Assembly (NCBI GenBank): GCA_025350695.1
Contig: JANXXI010000287.1
Coordinates: 1 to 64,000, forward strand
Direction of reading: 5' to 3'
Source: Acidobacteriota bacterium
Lineage (GTDB): Bacteria; Acidobacteriota; Terriglobia; Bryobacterales; Bryobacteraceae
DNA: 64,000 nt
Each line of letters begins with the position of its first letter. Position 1 is the first letter of the stretch. This document shows positions 7,038 to 27,488 of the stretch, piece after piece. The notes under the pieces are model-generated. The model made no database searches. It was not told the DNA's origin and saw only the letters and a program-made list of their open reading frames with translations. A program made the position numbers and the translations under genes.

Positions 7038-7241
7038 AAAGATCCCCTTTCGATAGGGCTCGCGTCCGCACGACGAGCTGAAAGAAGATCACCGACATAA
7101 AACTCGATAGAACTACCCGGTGGGCTCGGCCCTTTCCCGCGGACAGGATGCGCCCGTTGCGCTACGGGTCCAATTTACCGCCAAGCAGTTCCTCACGTCA
7201 AGGCCAATTACCTAAGGTTGAAATCCGCCTTCAAATTCGAT

Positions 7242-9830
7242 ATGGTTGTTGTCGTGCTTCGCTCCAACTTTATCCTTATTAGCGCCGTCTCCGTGATGTG
7301 CGTCGCCGCCGCGCCCGCGAACGTAAGTCTCAACGGCCCCGTCAAGGTCGAAATTTTCGAGCAGCTAAAACCTGCCGGCCTGTTGTCGCCGCCAGCCGAC
7401 GCCAAGCCCATCGAAATTTACCAGGAACCTGCCTTCGCTTTCGTCCGCATCCCCACCAAATTCTCAGGCAACGCGCTGCCCATGGATCGCTCCGTCCCCT
7501 TCACCTTGAAGGCTACGTATGAGCGCGTGATCACCGCCGGCGAATACCGCTTTCGCCTCCGCGCCCGTGGCGCCGCACGCCTGGAGATCGACGGCCAAGT
7601 CGTCGCTGAATCGAAGCCTCAACCACCCAACGTAACCGGCGATGATCCCGTTCCCCCGCAGCCTGTCCGCGAAGATTCCCCGCTGCGTCCTGCCTCCTAC
7701 CCGCACCAGGACATCCTGTATAGAGTCACGCTTCCAGCAGGCGTTCACAAATTCGTTCTAACCGCCGTGATCGGCGGCAGGGGCCTCTATCCAACCCCCG
7801 GCGAACTTGCCGTCAGCTTCGCACCCATCGGAAAATTGGACCGCCTGCTTGGCCCGGCATCAGCACCGTACCTGACCGACGAAGAATGGACCCGCTACGT
7901 AGCCACCATCAACAAGCGTCACGAAGAAGCCGACGTGGTTCGCCGCCGCCTGGCCTCGACCGAAGTCGCCGCCGAATGGAGGACGCGCCACGACAGAGTT
8001 CGCACGGAACTGCTGAAGATAGCCGCACCCACTGCGCCAGCCCTTAAATCAGCGCTTCCCGTTCACAACGATATCGACCGTTACCTCGGCGCGCGCCTCG
8101 AAGCTGAAAAACAACTGCCCACTGAAAGCACCAACGACCTCGAATTTTTCCGACGCCTCTCGCTCGACGCAACCGGCATCATCCCAACTCCCGTCGAGAT
8201 TCGTAGCTATCTCGCCGACCCACCAAAAACCCGCCGCACAAAAGCTATCGAACGCCTGCTCGCCTCCAGCGGTTGGGCCGATCATTGGGTCTCCTACTGG
8301 CAAGATGTGCTCGCCGAAAACCCCGGCATCTTGAAGCCCGACCTCAACAACACCGGCCCCTTCCGCTGGTGGATTCATCAATCCTTCGCCGACGGCATTC
8401 CGTTTGATCGCTTCGTTGCCGAACTGCTAAGCATGGAAGGCAGCGCCTACCAAGGTGGCCCCGCGGGCTTCGCCCAAGCAACTTTGAACGATGCGCCAAT
8501 GGCCGCAAAAGCCGAAATCGTGGCGCAGGCGTTCCTCGGCCAACGCATGGGTTGCGCCCGTTGCCACGATGCGCCTTTCCACCCCTTCAAGCAGAAGGAT
8601 CTCTTCAGCCTGGCCGCCATGATGCAAGGCAAGGAAATCAAGCTTCCGAAAACTTCCACCGTCCCGATGATCGAAGGCGGTCGCAAGCCTGCCGTCACCG
8701 TGGCGTTAAAGCCCGGCGAAGCAATCGGCCCCGCATGGCCCTTCGCGACGTTAGCCGACCATGCCGAAACCGGTGCGCTGCCCAACAAAGCCGCCGTGCC
8801 CTCGCGTAATGAAGTGGCCGCGCTCATTATCTCGCCCGATAACAAGCGCTTCCCACAAGTCATCGTCAACCGCATTTGGAAACGCTACATGGGCCTGGGA
8901 ATTGTTGAGCCCGCCGACGATTGGTCGCGCGGCAAAGCTTCGCATCCTGAACTGCTCGATTACCTCGCCCGCGAATTCGCGCTCAGCGGTTACGACATCA
9001 AGCACGTCGCCCGCCTCATTTTCACCTCGCACGCCTACCAACGCAAGCCCATCGCCGACCCGTCCATTTCCACAGGCGAACAAGCCCGCCTCTTCGCCGG
9101 TCCCATCCGTCGCAACATGACCGCCGAACAGTTGGTGGATTCGCTCCATCTTGGCGCAGGCAGGCCGTTTGAATGCGAAGACATGAATCTGAACCCATCC
9201 GGCGACCGCTCCCCCAGCCAGTTCCTGAACATGGGCAAACCCGAGCGCGCCTGGCAGATGACGGCCCTGTCGAACGAGCGTGACCGCCCGGCGCTAGCGC
9301 TTCCCATCGCGCAATCCATCGTGGATGTGATGTCTGTCTACGGTTGGCGTCAATCGCGCCAGAACGCCGCAACGTCTCGTGATGATGCCCCTTCGCCCAT
9401 GCAGACTCTGATTCTTGCAAACGGCATCCTAGGCACCCGCATGATTCGCCTTACCGACGATAGCGAGCTCACGGAACTCGCTCTGTCAGACGTTCCGCTG
9501 GAAAAAATGGTGAACGAAATGTTCCTCCGCGTTCTGTCGCGCCCAGCTAGCAAGGAAGAGGTTCGCGTGTTGTCGAGCCTGCTCGGCGATCTGTATCCGG
9601 CACGTAAAGTGAAAGGCGCCGCTAAGGCCGATTCGTCCACCAAGAGCGATAGCCGCGTAAGCTGGTCGAACCACCTCAGCGCCGAAGCGACCGTGATTCG
9701 CATGGAAGAAGAAAGAGCGCTACGCATGGGCGCCAAGCCAACCGCGCGACTGGAAGCCAAGTTCCGCGAGCGTTTGGAAGATGCCCTGTGGGCCATGTTC
9801 AACTCCCCAGAATTTGTGATGGTGCCCTAA
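7242..9830 (+). CDS. Exported DUF1549/DUF1553 protein with PA14-like N-terminal domain
   Basis: The protein (about 862 residues) begins with a hydrophobic leader ending in VAAAPA. Residues 40-190 look like a PA14-type beta sandwich (ITAGEYRFRLRARGAARLEI). DUF1549 spans about 275-480, starting at FFRRLSLDATGIIPT and including a CxxCH-like CARCH at 438-442. DUF1553 follows ([34 protein letters not shown]). I chose ATG 7242 because it starts directly at the leader; a TTG at 7218 is an alternative and neither has a good ribosome site. The function of the family is unproven; it is always found with a DUF1501 partner, which here overlaps its stop by one base (TAATG). Unlike the second pair at 55.6 kb it lacks an N-terminal cytochrome domain. 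Confidence 0.85.
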   Translation: MVVVVLRSNFILISAVSVMCVAAAPANVSLNGPVKVEIFEQLKPAGLLSPPADAKPIEIYQEPAFAFVRIPTKFSGNALPMDRSVPFTLKATYERVITAGEYRFRLRARGAARLEIDGQVVAESKPQPPNVTGDDPVPPQPVREDSPLRPASYPHQDILYRVTLPAGVHKFVLTAVIGGRGLYPTPGELAVSFAPIGKLDRLLGPASAPYLTDEEWTRYVATINKRHEEADVVRRRLASTEVAAEWRTRHDRVRTELLKIAAPTAPALKSALPVHNDIDRYLGARLEAEKQLPTESTNDLEFFRRLSLDATGIIPTPVEIRSYLADPPKTRRTKAIERLLASSGWADHWVSYWQDVLAENPGILKPDLNNTGPFRWWIHQSFADGIPFDRFVAELLSMEGSAYQGGPAGFAQATLNDAPMAAKAEIVAQAFLGQRMGCARCHDAPFHPFKQKDLFSLAAMMQGKEIKLPKTSTVPMIEGGRKPAVTVALKPGEAIGPAWPFATLADHAETGALPNKAAVPSRNEVAALIISPDNKRFPQVIVNRIWKRYMGLGIVEPADDWSRGKASHPELLDYLAREFALSGYDIKHVARLIFTSHAYQRKPIADPSISTGEQARLFAGPIRRNMTAEQLVDSLHLGAGRPFECEDMNLNPSGDRSPSQFLNMGKPERAWQMTALSNERDRPALALPIAQSIVDVMSVYGWRQSRQNAATSRDDAPSPMQTLILANGILGTRMIRLTDDSELTELALSDVPLEKMVNEMFLRVLSRPASKEEVRVLSSLLGDLYPARKVKGAAKADSSTKSDSRVSWSNHLSAEATVIRMEEERALRMGAKPTARLEAKFRERLEDALWAMFNSPEFVMVP

Positions 9831-11098
9831 TGAACCTGACTCGCCGCGACCTATTGAAATCCGCCGCCCTGGCCCCCGCACTTGCCGGTGCGGCCACCGT
9901 TGTGAAATATCCGAAGGGCAAGGCCGACGCCTGCATTCTTCTATGGCTAGGCGGAGGCGCCGCCCACATCGACACGTTCGACCCCAAACGCAAAGGCGAC
10001 GGCAAGAAGGTTGCCGGGTCGTACTACAACGCCATCAACACGGCAGTGAAAGATGTGCAGGTTTGTGAACACCTGAAGCACACCGCCCCACTGCTTGACC
10101 GTTGCGCGCTGGTCCGCACTTTATCGCACGACATAGTCAGCGAGCACGGCGCCGCATCGAACCTGGTGCACACCGGCCGCATGCCCAGTGGGACAATTCA
10201 GTACCCGTCCATCGGCTCAATCATCTCGAAGGAACTTGGCTCTAAGGATAAGGCCGTGCCGTCCTACGTCGTGATGGGCTACCCCAACATCACGCGCGAC
10301 CCCGGTTTCCTCGGCGCGAAGTACGGCTACATTTACCTCACGCAAACCGAGACGGGCCCCAACGGTTTCGTCCGCCCAGGCGATGTGGATAACGGTCGGC
10401 AGGATCGCCGCGAGACGCTGCTGGCCCAACTGCGCAAGGGCTTCGAGCAACGCAACCCCGATGACCAAATGATCCGCGCCCAATCGTCCATCAGCGAGCA
10501 AGGCTTCAAGATGGCCGGCCCGAAATTCATGAACGTGTTTGAGTTGGGCAAGGAATCGAAGACGTTGCGTGAATCGTACGGCGGCGAGTTCGGCCAGCGC
10601 TGTTTGTTGGCGCGTCGTCTGGTCCAATCCGGCGTTCGTTTCGTCGAGGTATCGTTCAACTTGAACTTCCTGAACGGCAGCGGTTGGGATACGCATAACG
10701 ATGGCCAGGTAAAACAGCACCTTCTTATCCAGGATTTGGACCAAGCCTTCGCGACTCTCTTGACCGACCTCGAAAAGACAAAGCTGCTGGACACGACGCT
10801 AGTAGTCATCGCGACCGAATTCGGCCGTCCCCCAGAGTTCGATTCCGGCGGTGGACGAGGGCATCACTCAAAGGTGTTCAGCGGCGTGCTGGCCGGTGGT
10901 GGCCTTCGGACCGCGCGGGCGATTGGCGTGTCCGATGAGCTGGGCGTGAAACCTGTGGATCGTTCGGTGAGTATCCCCGATTTCCACGCCACCATTCATT
11001 GTGCGTTGGGCATTGATCCGTCGAAGAATTTGTATGCGGGGGACAGGCCCGTGCCGATTACGGATAAGGGTGTGCCGGTTACCGAGTTGTTCGGATAA
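9830..11098 (+). CDS. Tat-exported DUF1501 protein
   Basis: A protein of 422 residues starting at the ATG that overlaps the preceding stop (TAATG), which implies translational coupling to the DUF1549/1553 gene. The N-terminus LTRRDLLKSAALAPALAGAA is a twin-arginine leader. The body shows the DUF1501 landmarks LWLGGGAAHIDTFDPKR, the central SYGGEFGQRCLLARRLVQ, GWDTHNDG and VVIATEFGRPP, a sulfatase/alkaline-phosphatase-like fold with likely metal-binding Asp, His and Glu. Enzymatic activity is not established for the family. The pair is probably periplasmic and co-exported. Confidence 0.88.
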   Translation: MNLTRRDLLKSAALAPALAGAATVVKYPKGKADACILLWLGGGAAHIDTFDPKRKGDGKKVAGSYYNAINTAVKDVQVCEHLKHTAPLLDRCALVRTLSHDIVSEHGAASNLVHTGRMPSGTIQYPSIGSIISKELGSKDKAVPSYVVMGYPNITRDPGFLGAKYGYIYLTQTETGPNGFVRPGDVDNGRQDRRETLLAQLRKGFEQRNPDDQMIRAQSSISEQGFKMAGPKFMNVFELGKESKTLRESYGGEFGQRCLLARRLVQSGVRFVEVSFNLNFLNGSGWDTHNDGQVKQHLLIQDLDQAFATLLTDLEKTKLLDTTLVVIATEFGRPPEFDSGGGRGHHSKVFSGVLAGGGLRTARAIGVSDELGVKPVDRSVSIPDFHATIHCALGIDPSKNLYAGDRPVPITDKGVPVTELFG

Positions 11099-11850: not shown

Positions 11851-11866
11851 ACCCACGAGGAGATCA

Positions 11867-13975
11867 ATGCCCAAAGCTATCAAATTCGCTGAAAAGGCTC
11901 TAACAGTATCGGCGAACGCCGCCTGGCACGTTTACGACACGCTGAATTCGCTCATCGCCCCCAATCCTTCCTTCACCCCGAAGTGGTCCGACAAGCCCCT
12001 GCTCAAATCCCACGAAAAGATGATGCCGCAGCTCGGCTGGCCCCGCGAAACCGATTCTCTGTGCCCCAAGTGCATTCCCGAAGTCCGCAAGGAAATCCTT
12101 GACGGAAAGAAGGACTACAAGATCCTCATCAACGAAAAGCCCGGCGAGATCAAAGCCCGCATCATCGAAAAAGACGGCAACATCGTCATGATCAAAACTT
12201 GCCCCATCCACGGCGAATTCGAAGATCTGATGTCCATCGACCCCGCCTTCTCCAAACACCTCGAAGACGTGTTCCCCGGCCGCGACATCCGCGCCCACAA
12301 CGACGAAAAGCTTCACAACCACGGTAGTTCCACCGTCACTCATGGCCGCGGCTCGGTCCTCACCATCGATCTCACCAACCGCTGCAACATGATGTGCGAT
12401 CCCTGCTTCATGGACGCCAATCAAGTCGGCTTCGTCCACGAACTCGGCTGGGAAGACATCAAGACCATGCTCGACAACGCGGCGCAGATTAAGCCGCGCC
12501 GCCAAATGTCGGTGCAGTTCTCCGGTGGCGAGCCCACGCTTTCCCCTTACTTCCTCGACGCGGTTCGTTATTCGCGCAAGGTTGGCTACAACTCAGTGCA
12601 GGCGGCGACCAACGGTATCGAATTCGCCAAGTCCCCCGAGTTCTGTAAGCAAGCCGCCGAAGCCGGTCTCCGCTACGCTTATCTGCAGTTCGACGGCATC
12701 GGCAACGAAGCCAACTCGCATCGCTTGGTTGGCAACTTGTTCGACGTGAAATTGCGCGCGATTCACAACCTACACAACGCAGGTGTGGACATCGTACCGG
12801 TCATCACGCTGATCAACGGCATCAACAATGAACAGGTCGGCGCGGTGATTCGCTTCGCTCTCGACAATCCGAAGATCATCAGCTTCCTTAGCTTCCAGCC
12901 CGTTTCGTTCACTGGCCGCGATGAAGCCGTTTCCGACGAACGCCGCGTTGCTCAGCGTTATACCTTGAGCCACCTTGCGCATGACGTTAAGAATCAGGTT
13001 GGCCTCGGCGAGCCGGTTCGCGATTGGTTCCCTATTTCGTTCATGAGCACCTTCTCCGATTTCGCTGATTTGGTCCACGGGCCTCAGGCGGAATGGGGTC
13101 AGCTCTCCTGCGGATGCCACCCCAACTGCGGCATCGGCATGGCGCTGATGATTGATAAAGAAACTAAGGAAGCCCGTCCGGTGACCGCGTTCCTGAACGC
13201 CGAACAGCTTGCAAAGGACATCGCTCGCATCAACGACGCTGCCCGAAGCAAGAAGATTTCGGTGCTGGGCGTTACGTTGGCGCTGCTTCGCAACTACGAA
13301 CCTTTTGAAGCTCCGACCCACTTCCAACTCAAAGATCTGGTGAAGAAGTTTGACAAGTGCTTCGGCATGACCAAGAAAGATTACGGTAAGGTAACTGGCG
13401 ACCGTTCGATGAATGACATCGAAAAGCGCCGCGCCGACCGTTGGAACTTCCTGTTCGTCGCCGGCATGTGGTTCCAGGATCTGTTCAACTACGATTTCCG
13501 CAGAACCGAACAGTGCATTATTCCTTACGCTACCCAGCAAGGCGAAATCAGCTTCTGCGCCTACAACACGGGCGTCGGCTGGCGGAACATCATCGAGAAG
13601 ATGCACATGACCGCTACCTTGACTAAATGGTATGACGAGCATGGCCGTCACGAAATCTTCGCCGGGGGTAAGAAGGTGAAGTTGGAAACGGATGCCACCA
13701 AACTGGTCCTAAACCAGGTGGACGTGGATAAGGAACGGCAACACGATCTGGACGGAATCGGCGTGGCTAAGAATGCTCGCGAAGAGAAGGTTCGGGCCCG
13801 TGACGAGAAGATGAAAGAATCGGCTTATAACTCGCACATGTCGAAACTGTATCGCGAACATGTGTTGCAGGAACAGCCCGCTCCAGCCGGCTTCGTACCG
13901 CTCGGCGCAATCGGTGGAATTGCTCCGGCCCCGAAAGTCCAAGAGCAGAAAGAAGTCGGCTCCTTCGGCGACTAA
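11867..13975 (+). CDS. Radical SAM protein resembling tetraether/membrane-spanning lipid synthase (Tes)
   Basis: A 702-residue radical SAM enzyme behind a GAGGAG ribosome site (11857-11862). The N-terminal half has LCPKC (C66, C69) and the TCPIHGEFEDL block (C112). The SAM-cluster motif is C173-NMM-C177-DP-C180, followed by SGGEP at 219-223. Further conserved cysteines occur in SCGCHPNCGIG (C415, C417, C421) and near the C-terminus (C498, C550, C564). The CPxC/CPxHG head plus several auxiliary cysteine clusters is the layout of archaeal Tes, which joins lipid tails by carbon-carbon bonds, and of its bacterial relatives. Acidobacteria make iso-diabolic acid and branched GDGT lipids, so a tail-coupling role is a plausible inference. 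Another radical SAM chemistry cannot be excluded. It stands alone, closed by a strong terminator. Confidence 0.65.
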   Translation: MPKAIKFAEKALTVSANAAWHVYDTLNSLIAPNPSFTPKWSDKPLLKSHEKMMPQLGWPRETDSLCPKCIPEVRKEILDGKKDYKILINEKPGEIKARIIEKDGNIVMIKTCPIHGEFEDLMSIDPAFSKHLEDVFPGRDIRAHNDEKLHNHGSSTVTHGRGSVLTIDLTNRCNMMCDPCFMDANQVGFVHELGWEDIKTMLDNAAQIKPRRQMSVQFSGGEPTLSPYFLDAVRYSRKVGYNSVQAATNGIEFAKSPEFCKQAAEAGLRYAYLQFDGIGNEANSHRLVGNLFDVKLRAIHNLHNAGVDIVPVITLINGINNEQVGAVIRFALDNPKIISFLSFQPVSFTGRDEAVSDERRVAQRYTLSHLAHDVKNQVGLGEPVRDWFPISFMSTFSDFADLVHGPQAEWGQLSCGCHPNCGIGMALMIDKETKEARPVTAFLNAEQLAKDIARINDAARSKKISVLGVTLALLRNYEPFEAPTHFQLKDLVKKFDKCFGMTKKDYGKVTGDRSMNDIEKRRADRWNFLFVAGMWFQDLFNYDFRRTEQCIIPYATQQGEISFCAYNTGVGWRNIIEKMHMTATLTKWYDEHGRHEIFAGGKKVKLETDATKLVLNQVDVDKERQHDLDGIGVAKNAREEKVRARDEKMKESAYNSHMSKLYREHVLQEQPAPAGFVPLGAIGGIAPAPKVQEQKEVGSFGD

Positions 13976-13994
13976 GCCTCAATCAAATTCGATC

Positions 13995-14034
13995 AAAACA
14001 ACGCCGGGCCAACCAGCCGGGCGTTGTTTTGTTT
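13995..14034 (+). terminator. Intrinsic terminator of the radical SAM gene
   Basis: AAAACAACGCCGG and CCGGGCGTTGTTTT pair in a long stem around a short CA-rich loop, followed by GTTT. The flanking A and T tracts make it effective in both directions, so it may also end the convergent ccm operon. Confidence 0.85.
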
Positions 14035-26627: not shown

Positions 26628-27488
26628 CTAAGCCGCTTCGCGTTCGGCCATTGGCGCGTCGACGCGAGGATAGCGCACTCGAGTGGCGATTCCGAGTTTT
26701 TCCATCAACTGGATGTGGAGCCAGCTGATGTCCAGTTCATACCACTTGAGCCCATGGCGCGCCGAAGCCGGCAGCGCATGATGATTGTTGTGCCAACCCT
26801 CACCGAAGGTCAGCAAAGCGACCCACCAGTTATTGCGCGAGTCATCGGTAGTATCAAAACGGCGGCTGCCCCAAAGATGCGTGGCTGAGTTCACAAGCCA
26901 GGTGGCATGGAGTCCGGCAACGACGCGGAGGGGACCAGCCCAAAGAAACATCGGCCAACCACCTATAAGGAAAAGTATGATGCCGGAAATGGTGAGTGGC
27001 AGCCAATGCCAATTGGTGAGCCAAACGTAGAACGGATCTTTAGCAAGATCGGGAGCAAATCGGCTCATCGCCGCGGCATCGTCATGCTTCGATTCCCCGG
27101 AAACAATCCAACCCATGTGCGACCACCAGACCCCGTCGCGAGGGGAATGCGGATCGCCGTGTCTGTCCGATTTCTGATGATGAACGCGGTGCGTGGCCAC
27201 CCAGAAAATGGGGCCACCTTCAAGGGTCATGCTGCCGCAAAGTGCAAAGAAATGCTCCAGCCACTTGGGGGCAACATACGAGCGATGAGTATGTAGGCGA
27301 TGGTAACCAAGCCCGATGCCCCAGCAGATACAGCAATAGTACAGGATGAAGGCAGTTACTACCGCTTGCGTGGTGATATTGAAGAACGCGGCAACTGCGC
27401 CTACGTGCAGGGCGGCCAACACGATGATGTTGACCCAATTAGGCTTACGATCCTGGAAATTGATTTCGACGACTGTGGGATTGCTCAT
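26628..27488 (-). CDS. Acyl-CoA/fatty acid desaturase
   Basis: A 286-residue membrane di-iron desaturase of the delta-9 type. The three histidine boxes are present: HRLHTH (63-68), HRVHH (100-104) and HNNHH in the GEGWHNNHHALP block. Four transmembrane segments are visible. It introduces a double bond into membrane fatty acids. It lies upstream of the two-component genes on the same strand (57 nt from the kinase start), so co-transcription and a membrane-related signal are possible. Confidence 0.93.
   Translation of the reverse strand: MSNPTVVEINFQDRKPNWVNIIVLAALHVGAVAAFFNITTQAVVTAFILYYCCICWGIGLGYHRLHTHRSYVAPKWLEHFFALCGSMTLEGGPIFWVATHRVHHQKSDRHGDPHSPRDGVWWSHMGWIVSGESKHDDAAAMSRFAPDLAKDPFYVWLTNWHWLPLTISGIILFLIGGWPMFLWAGPLRVVAGLHATWLVNSATHLWGSRRFDTTDDSRNNWWVALLTFGEGWHNNHHALPASARHGLKWYELDISWLHIQLMEKLGIATRVRYPRVDAPMAEREAA

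Follow-up and report, generated by a model that had tools for sequence, protein, structure and literature searches.

Iso-diabolic acid, a major membrane lipid of Acidobacteria, is the backbone of the branched glycerol dialkyl glycerol tetraethers (brGDGTs), which serve to reconstruct past temperature and pH, and we know of no acidobacterial enzyme that has been proven to couple its two chains. A membrane-spanning lipid synthase (Mss) and Ger were reportedly presented by Sahonero-Canavesi et al. in 2022. According to Lloyd et al. 2022 (PMC9433317), the archaeal tetraether synthase (Tes) MjTes (GDGT-MAS, MJ0619) has a rubredoxin-type iron (C9, C12, C33, H36), an N-terminal [4Fe-4S] cluster in a surface domain (C73, C77, C80 and a His), the S-adenosylmethionine (SAM) cluster and a C-terminal [4Fe-4S] cluster of which Met439 is a labile ligand. 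For bacteria, 456 Tes homologues, those of Acidobacteria included, were reported and brGDGT synthesis was proposed (Zeng et al. 2022, PMC8941075), one or both homologues of S. usitatus were proposed to couple diethers (Halamka et al. 2022, PMC10087280), and AlphaFold models of Mss were reported to share the Tes architecture (PMC13274423). In the last of these sources iso-diabolic acid is given as 20–40% of the fatty acids in 17 cultures of subdivision 1 and 3 Acidobacteria. The DNA analysed here, called the window, comprises 64,000 nucleotides of an Acidobacteriota genome (assembly GCA_025350695.1, contig JANXXI010000287.1, positions 1 to 64,000) and contains a real open reading frame (ORF) for a radical SAM protein of 702 aa (11867-13975, + strand; ORF, profile and PDB searches). 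This protein, the query, is a Tes relative and not plain Tes. It falls into a cluster-reduced acidobacterial clade (clade A), set apart from the canonical bacterial Tes homologues (clade B), and clade A is probably a Tes offshoot that couples two iso-C15 chains tail to tail to give iso-diabolic acid. What the analysis shows directly is the kinship, the conserved residues, the loss of the N-terminal cluster (N cluster) and the distribution. Tes homologues as bacterial couplers are already published; new here is a putative coupling-enzyme clade with one metal cluster fewer. No description of an N-cluster-free clade or of its distribution was found in the literature searched, and subscription papers and supplements, which were mostly beyond reach, may hold one.

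The query matched the Pfam families Radical_SAM (PF04055, 67 bits) and Zn_ribbon_HMPTM. The nearest solved structure by sequence was MjTes (7TOL/7TOM; phmmer 7.1e-64, residues 95-579), to which the query is 31.6% identical. An AlphaFold2 model of middling quality was used for structural comparison (mean predicted local distance difference test score (pLDDT) 71, predicted template modelling score (pTM) 0.77); Foldseek matched it to MjTes at 1.2e-23 and to the next fold at 6e-5, and VIA-align gave Z 20.7 for MjTes (root mean square deviation 4.0 over 429 residues) and Z 13.6 for the next fold. The fold, the rubredoxin-type site, the SAM cluster and the residues of the C-terminal cluster (C cluster), including its Met, are common to the query, MjTes and archaeal Tes, whereas the query is without the N-terminal [4Fe-4S] cluster, carries the motifs CGCHPNC and HxHG and has longer N- and C-termini. 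The second NCBIfam profile was TrsS (NF045646; 199.5 bits, cut-off 490 not reached); the TrsS radical SAM (seleno)proteins have a related radical SAM core, the query lies far below their cut-off, and TrsS-like proteins served as the outgroup of the trees.

The sequence-only reading of this gene had pointed to a CPxC and CPxHG head, a CxxxCxxC SAM cluster and at least six further cysteines; these motifs are present as CPKC, CPIHG and CNMMCDPC, and the 13 cysteines of the query are C66, C69, C112, C173, C177, C180 and seven further ones (C260, C415, C417, C421, C498, C550, C564). The predicted rubredoxin-type iron site (12062-12211, + strand like all features of this gene; Pfam Zn_ribbon_HMPTM) consists of C66 and C69 (CPKC), C112 and H115 (CPIHG), with ligand roles taken from MjTes as described in PMC9433317. 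The radical SAM cluster motif CNMMCDPC (12383-12406; C173 x3 C177 x2 C180) was recognized by Pfam and by alignment. Between the two, the loop LHNHGSSTVTHGRG (12311-12352) with H150 and H152 (HxHG) stands in place of the N-cluster motif Cx3Cx2CxxH of Tes. In the motif CGCHPNC (13109-13129) C421 is aligned with a conserved Tes Cys, and C415 and C417 are extra relative to MjTes. C550 and C564 (13514-13558) are aligned with the other two conserved C-terminal Cys of Tes, and M534 (13466-13468) with the labile Met439 of the catalytic C cluster (PMC9433317). C421, C550 and C564 are thus inferred from alignment to be the Cys ligands of the C cluster; the available text of PMC9433317 names only the Met. 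The earlier statement that the cysteines are as in archaeal tetraether synthase therefore holds only for C421, C550 and C564; the three N-cluster Cys are absent, and C415 and C417 have no MjTes counterpart. No claim was made for a new metal site formed by C415, C417, H150 and H152, because long stretches of the loops at the SAM and C clusters have a pLDDT below 50 in the model. Past the MjTes match the protein continues in a C-terminal extension of about 120 residues (13604-13972; phmmer, identity profile and model); residues 601-700 are poorly conserved (0.47-0.56 identity), and the pLDDT is below 50 at the end of the model.

Conservation of these positions was followed in alignments that include the query. 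H150, H152, C415, C417, C421, M534, C550 and C564 are invariant in 26/26 rows of a diverse alignment and in 80/80 rows of a close one (A3); C260 and C498 are not invariant in A3. A motif census covered 178 entries with duplicates kept. HxHG without the N-cluster motif (A-type) was found in 152 of the 153 entries that share 45% identity or more with the query, the remaining one (L048) ending before the motif. Of the 25 more distant entries, 20 retain the N-cluster motif (L064, L168 and L170 among these being TrsS-like) and five could not be classified. The six unclassified entries of the whole census are incomplete (L048, L061) or TrsS-like (L165, L166, L167, L169). The loss of the N cluster thus marks a whole lineage. 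The CxCHxxC pattern was found in 151 of the 152 A-type entries, the C-cluster pattern in 150 and the rubredoxin pattern in 147; the eight entries missing one pattern reflect partly incomplete sequences and partly the limits of regular expressions. The sequence-only reading had itself named absence of the Tes auxiliary-cluster ligands as evidence that would speak against it, and this was found by half: the N-cluster ligands are missing clade-wide and the C-cluster residues are intact.

In a tree of 68 rows, clade A (43 rows) formed one group with support 100/100 and a long stem (1.48 changes per column). It was nested within the Tes family, beside the acidobacterial proteins L051, L052 and L053, which retain the N cluster (100/100), and the nesting recurred in a second tree from which the N-cluster loop and the three longest outgroup rows had been removed. 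The alternative of canonical Tes and MjTes as one clade excluding clade A was, however, not rejected by the approximately unbiased (AU) test (p 0.23). C415 is found in all three of L051-L053 and C417 also in L052; C417 without C415 occurs in L054, L056, L058, L060 and L064. The pattern suggests that the extra cysteines arose before the N cluster was lost. Clades A and B are of the same family, but the six clade B proteins scanned gave 493-619 bits, above the Tes profile cut-off of 450, and retain the N cluster, while the four clade A proteins scanned, query included, gave 291-344 bits. Two genomes of different genera in the window's family carry a clade A gene and a canonical Tes gene in tandem (L189:5986-10119, - strand; L190:6042-10024, + strand).

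Distribution in the phylum was scored by E-value band (A, E <= 1e-190; B, 1e-45 or lower; weak, the rest), with the proviso that broken genes may fall in the wrong band: a match was present in 219/396 Acidobacteriota genomes, namely clade A in 184, canonical Tes as best match in 25 and a weak match in 10, and 177 had none. In the window's class clade A was present in all 47 genomes drawn, source genome included; with at most two candidates scored per genome, the best match in the 46 other class genomes was 64% identical in one and 74-80% identical in all others. This conservation is far beyond chance. Among the genomes of the window's family that are at least 99% complete (n=39), clade A was found in 37 (some split at contig ends) and canonical Tes in 8. 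The reading of clade A as an inactive or regulatory remnant of Tes, to which the loss of the N cluster throughout the clade would lend itself, is hardly credible, given this identity and the SAM and C-cluster residues that are invariant in the 80 rows of A3.

Two further families containing clade A, f33 and f59, are taken to hold Chloracidobacterium (subdivision 4) and Luteitalea (subdivision 6), respectively. Family f24, which is probably Holophagaceae, lacked clade A by E-value band in every genome counted (at least 37). Of the seven subdivisions surveyed for iso-diabolic acid, numbers 1, 3, 4 and 6 were reported to have it (PMC13274423), and the fit between the distribution of clade A and the reported producers is good as far as it goes. 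COX1 was present in 175/184 clade A genomes versus 13/25 genomes with clade B as best match. Oxygen alone was rejected as the cause of the clade A distribution: 149/324 COX1-positive genomes lie outside the clade A band. The best 80 of 587 confirmed matches to the query were all acidobacterial, save one mislabelled record. This record, L122 (CALQCC020000001.1), is labelled 'MAG: Bordetella parapertussis isolate HRS-HS12-bin-180' and holds this acidobacterial gene at 79%; its contig is exactly as long (241,555) as G187:C1 of the window's family. Separately, four clade A copies (G355, G196, G143, G245) are each interrupted in the alignment by a single in-frame stop codon (TAA or TAG), which may in some cases reflect a sequencing error or a pseudogene.

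A same-strain link is given by Edaphobacter modestus DSM 18101, for which iso-diabolic acid was reported at 30.4% (PMC11354219, Table 1). Its genome (L164) contains exactly one Tes-family match at E <= 1e-15, a clade A protein 78% identical to the query. Any Tes-family enzyme responsible for iso-diabolic acid in this strain would therefore be clade A. Canonical Tes was found in 0/10 genomes of Acidipila, Granulicella, Edaphobacter and Acidobacteriaceae (E. modestus included), which had been selected for having clade A, so that its presence in them is by construction; Edaphobacter lichenicola M8UP30 has an extra weak match (28%). The link to iso-diabolic acid that the sequence-only reading had drawn is thus supported by the distribution of clade A and by E. 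modestus, both of which fit the producers reported in PMC11354219 and PMC13274423. Clade A might instead form a different bond, C-C or C-S, on chains of lipids or other hydrocarbons, with iso-diabolic acid coming from Mss or another enzyme. The long stem would allow a change of function, and Mss reportedly joins fatty acids in other bacteria, with homologues reported in 11/97 Acidobacteria metagenome-assembled genomes from the Black Sea (PMC11868695). We consider this unlikely, as the SAM-cluster and C-cluster residues of Tes are retained in clade A and the abundant iso-diabolic acid of E. modestus coincides with clade A as the sole Tes-family match, the Mss sequence not having been compared there. 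Mss was compared by description only, from which the coupling of fatty acyl tails is the proposed common reaction.

For clade A as iso-diabolic acid synthase, we infer the substrate, the product and what the extra Cys and His do, and we propose the reaction steps by analogy with MjTes. The likely substrate would be bacterial iso-fatty acyl lipids, in particular the iso-C15 acyl chains of membrane phospholipids, and the product membrane-spanning 13,16-dimethyloctacosanedioic acid. The chemistry can be the same as that of Tes because iso and phytanyl tails end in the same isopropyl group. The SAM cluster would generate a 5'-deoxyadenosyl radical, and this would abstract hydrogen from one iso chain at its terminal carbon. 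The carbon radical so formed would attach to a sulfide of the C cluster, for which C421, C550, C564 and M534 are taken as ligands. After a second SAM cleavage, a radical on the second chain would displace the sulfur, and the C-C bond would form. The surface N-terminal cluster has been dropped and the CGCHPNC/HxHG feature gained, with electrons probably arriving by another route.

Ether lipids were considered separately. Reductases of the PlsA/Ger type convert ester to ether bonds, and PlsA, with two activation domains, is assigned to the 2-hydroxyacyl-CoA dehydratase family (PMC12838417); PF09989 proteins with two BcrAD_BadFG stretches match this build. PF09989 was our own choice of ether-lipid marker and is imperfect: of the controls, only Thermotoga maritima and Lactococcus lactis were positive at 1e-10, and Thermus composti and Deinobacterium chartae were also positive at E 0.001. 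It was also found in f24 genomes without clade A and in 9/43 genomes of family f2. PF09989 proteins were split into two types by eye, on frame length and E-value. In the window's family 69/121 genomes have PF09989, 35/35 of those with canonical Tes (among the matches listed) versus 34/86 of the others; the link was weaker in the phylum draw (14/25 genomes with canonical Tes as best match), and because the genomes are related these co-occurrences are not independent events. A canonical Tes gene adjoins a PF09989 gene in G203 (L172). In three species of genus g221 (L185, L186, L187) a PF09989 gene immediately precedes clade A in the same orientation; such direct adjacency was seen in this genus only. 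In G442 (L188) the two genes are about 3 kb apart on opposite strands, which was not counted as adjacency. Just 3' of clade A in one of the g221 genomes there is a second radical SAM gene (L187:4872-5963, - strand; about 364 aa; best profile PqqE, 73 bits versus a cut-off of 381), whose product may act on the same lipids.

The sequence-only reading had also suggested brGDGT formation, that is, clade A as a true tetraether synthase acting on ether lipids. Besides the co-occurrence of PF09989 with canonical Tes in the window's family and the adjacency in g221, this would agree with the reports that S. usitatus, with two Tes homologues, makes brGDGTs (PMC10087280) and that E. aggregans has small amounts of iso-diabolic glycerol ether and a brGDGT (PMC13274423). 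It is nevertheless very unlikely. Neither a PF09989 (PlsA/Ger-like) gene nor a second, canonical Tes was found in the source genome, where Elb-type ether genes were not searched for, and the brGDGT part of the claim was not sustained for this organism. E. modestus has clade A, and PF09989 was not found in its genome; E. lichenicola M8UP30 was the sole PF09989 carrier among the ten genomes above. In addition, iso-diabolic glycerol ethers were not detected in the E. paludis study, which covered six Edaphobacter strains; this differs from earlier work, a discrepancy that its authors attribute to growth conditions (PMC11354219). Because both the PF09989 gene and the canonical Tes were missing from the matches in the source genome, its product is probably ester-bound iso-diabolic acid. 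The genomic context ties clade A to an ether pathway in few lineages, and in the source organism the coupling step alone is evident. We tentatively propose a modular acidobacterial pathway, in which widespread clade A would act as iso-diabolic acid synthase and brGDGT-type ethers would appear where a PlsA/Ger-like reductase, often with a second, canonical Tes, has been added; the cluster loss would perhaps be an aerobic adaptation.

Several observations weigh against clade A as the iso-diabolic acid synthase. The Tes profile of NCBIfam (NF045702 equivalog) ranks first for the query, yet its 314 bits are below the curated cut-off of 450, and neither the query nor any of the 16 clade A rows aligned with MjTes has the N-terminal [4Fe-4S] cluster of Tes; the Tes-like assignment thus stands on kinship by sequence, fold and tree and falls short on cut-off and N cluster. 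The fit to subdivisions is partial because many families without clade A lack names. There is no clear lipid cluster in the neighbourhood of the gene in the window, and its neighbours recur little among the 80 named loci. S. usitatus was reported with two Tes homologues and undetectable iso-diabolic acid (PMC10087280), and is credited in one place with iso-diabolic tetraesters (PMC13274423). Finally, an enzyme outside clade A may make iso-diabolic acid, a point on which the comparison with Mss is one of descriptions.

If clade A is the synthase, one of the three [4Fe-4S] clusters is dispensable for Tes chemistry. For cultured strains, E. modestus among them, clade A offers one candidate gene for iso-diabolic acid. 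Six clade A proteins are 30.6-32.5% identical to MjTes and eleven canonical ones 37-48%, and screens at 30% identity to archaeal Tes nearly miss the clade.

The source genome (7.19 Mb, 391 contigs) has one full-length copy of the gene, and no second clade A copy was found in it. The acidobacterial host proposed before is borne out by the closest loci: seven at 83-84% identity, among the best 80 matches, are all acidobacterial, three assigned to Bryobacterales, Bryobacteraceae, Candidatus Sulfopaludibacter and four only to 'Acidobacteria bacterium', and from their assignment the organism is taken for a subdivision 3 acidobacterium. The gene stands alone, with a gap of 768 bp to the upstream ORF and a convergent CcmC-like gene downstream, and a ribosome site GAGGAG (11857-11862, + strand) lies 4 nt 5' of the ATG, so that the description as monocistronic with a good ribosome site was correct. 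The terminator that had been described corresponds to a hairpin followed by a U-run (13994-14031, + strand; -25.8 kcal/mol, z -6.0), likely a bidirectional terminator between the convergent genes; it was not among the + strand sites of a simple scan for terminators, which gave fewer terminator-like sites than shuffled sequences (2 versus a mean of 4.3). A lipid gene cluster around the gene was rejected: the CcmC-like gene recurs in 2/80 named loci and an ABC ATPase in 13/80 (28-33% in six shown). Clustering of flanking ORFs showed no evident lipid partner, a weak result since the ORF picker often took antisense frames. Upstream of the Tes-related gene the window holds a pair of genes of unassigned function, PSCyt2/PSD1 (DUF1549/DUF1553) and DUF1501 (7218-11098, + strand). 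Farther downstream lies a fatty acid desaturase gene (26628-27488, - strand), followed on the same strand by genes for a histidine kinase and a response regulator, a group that possibly controls membrane fluidity.

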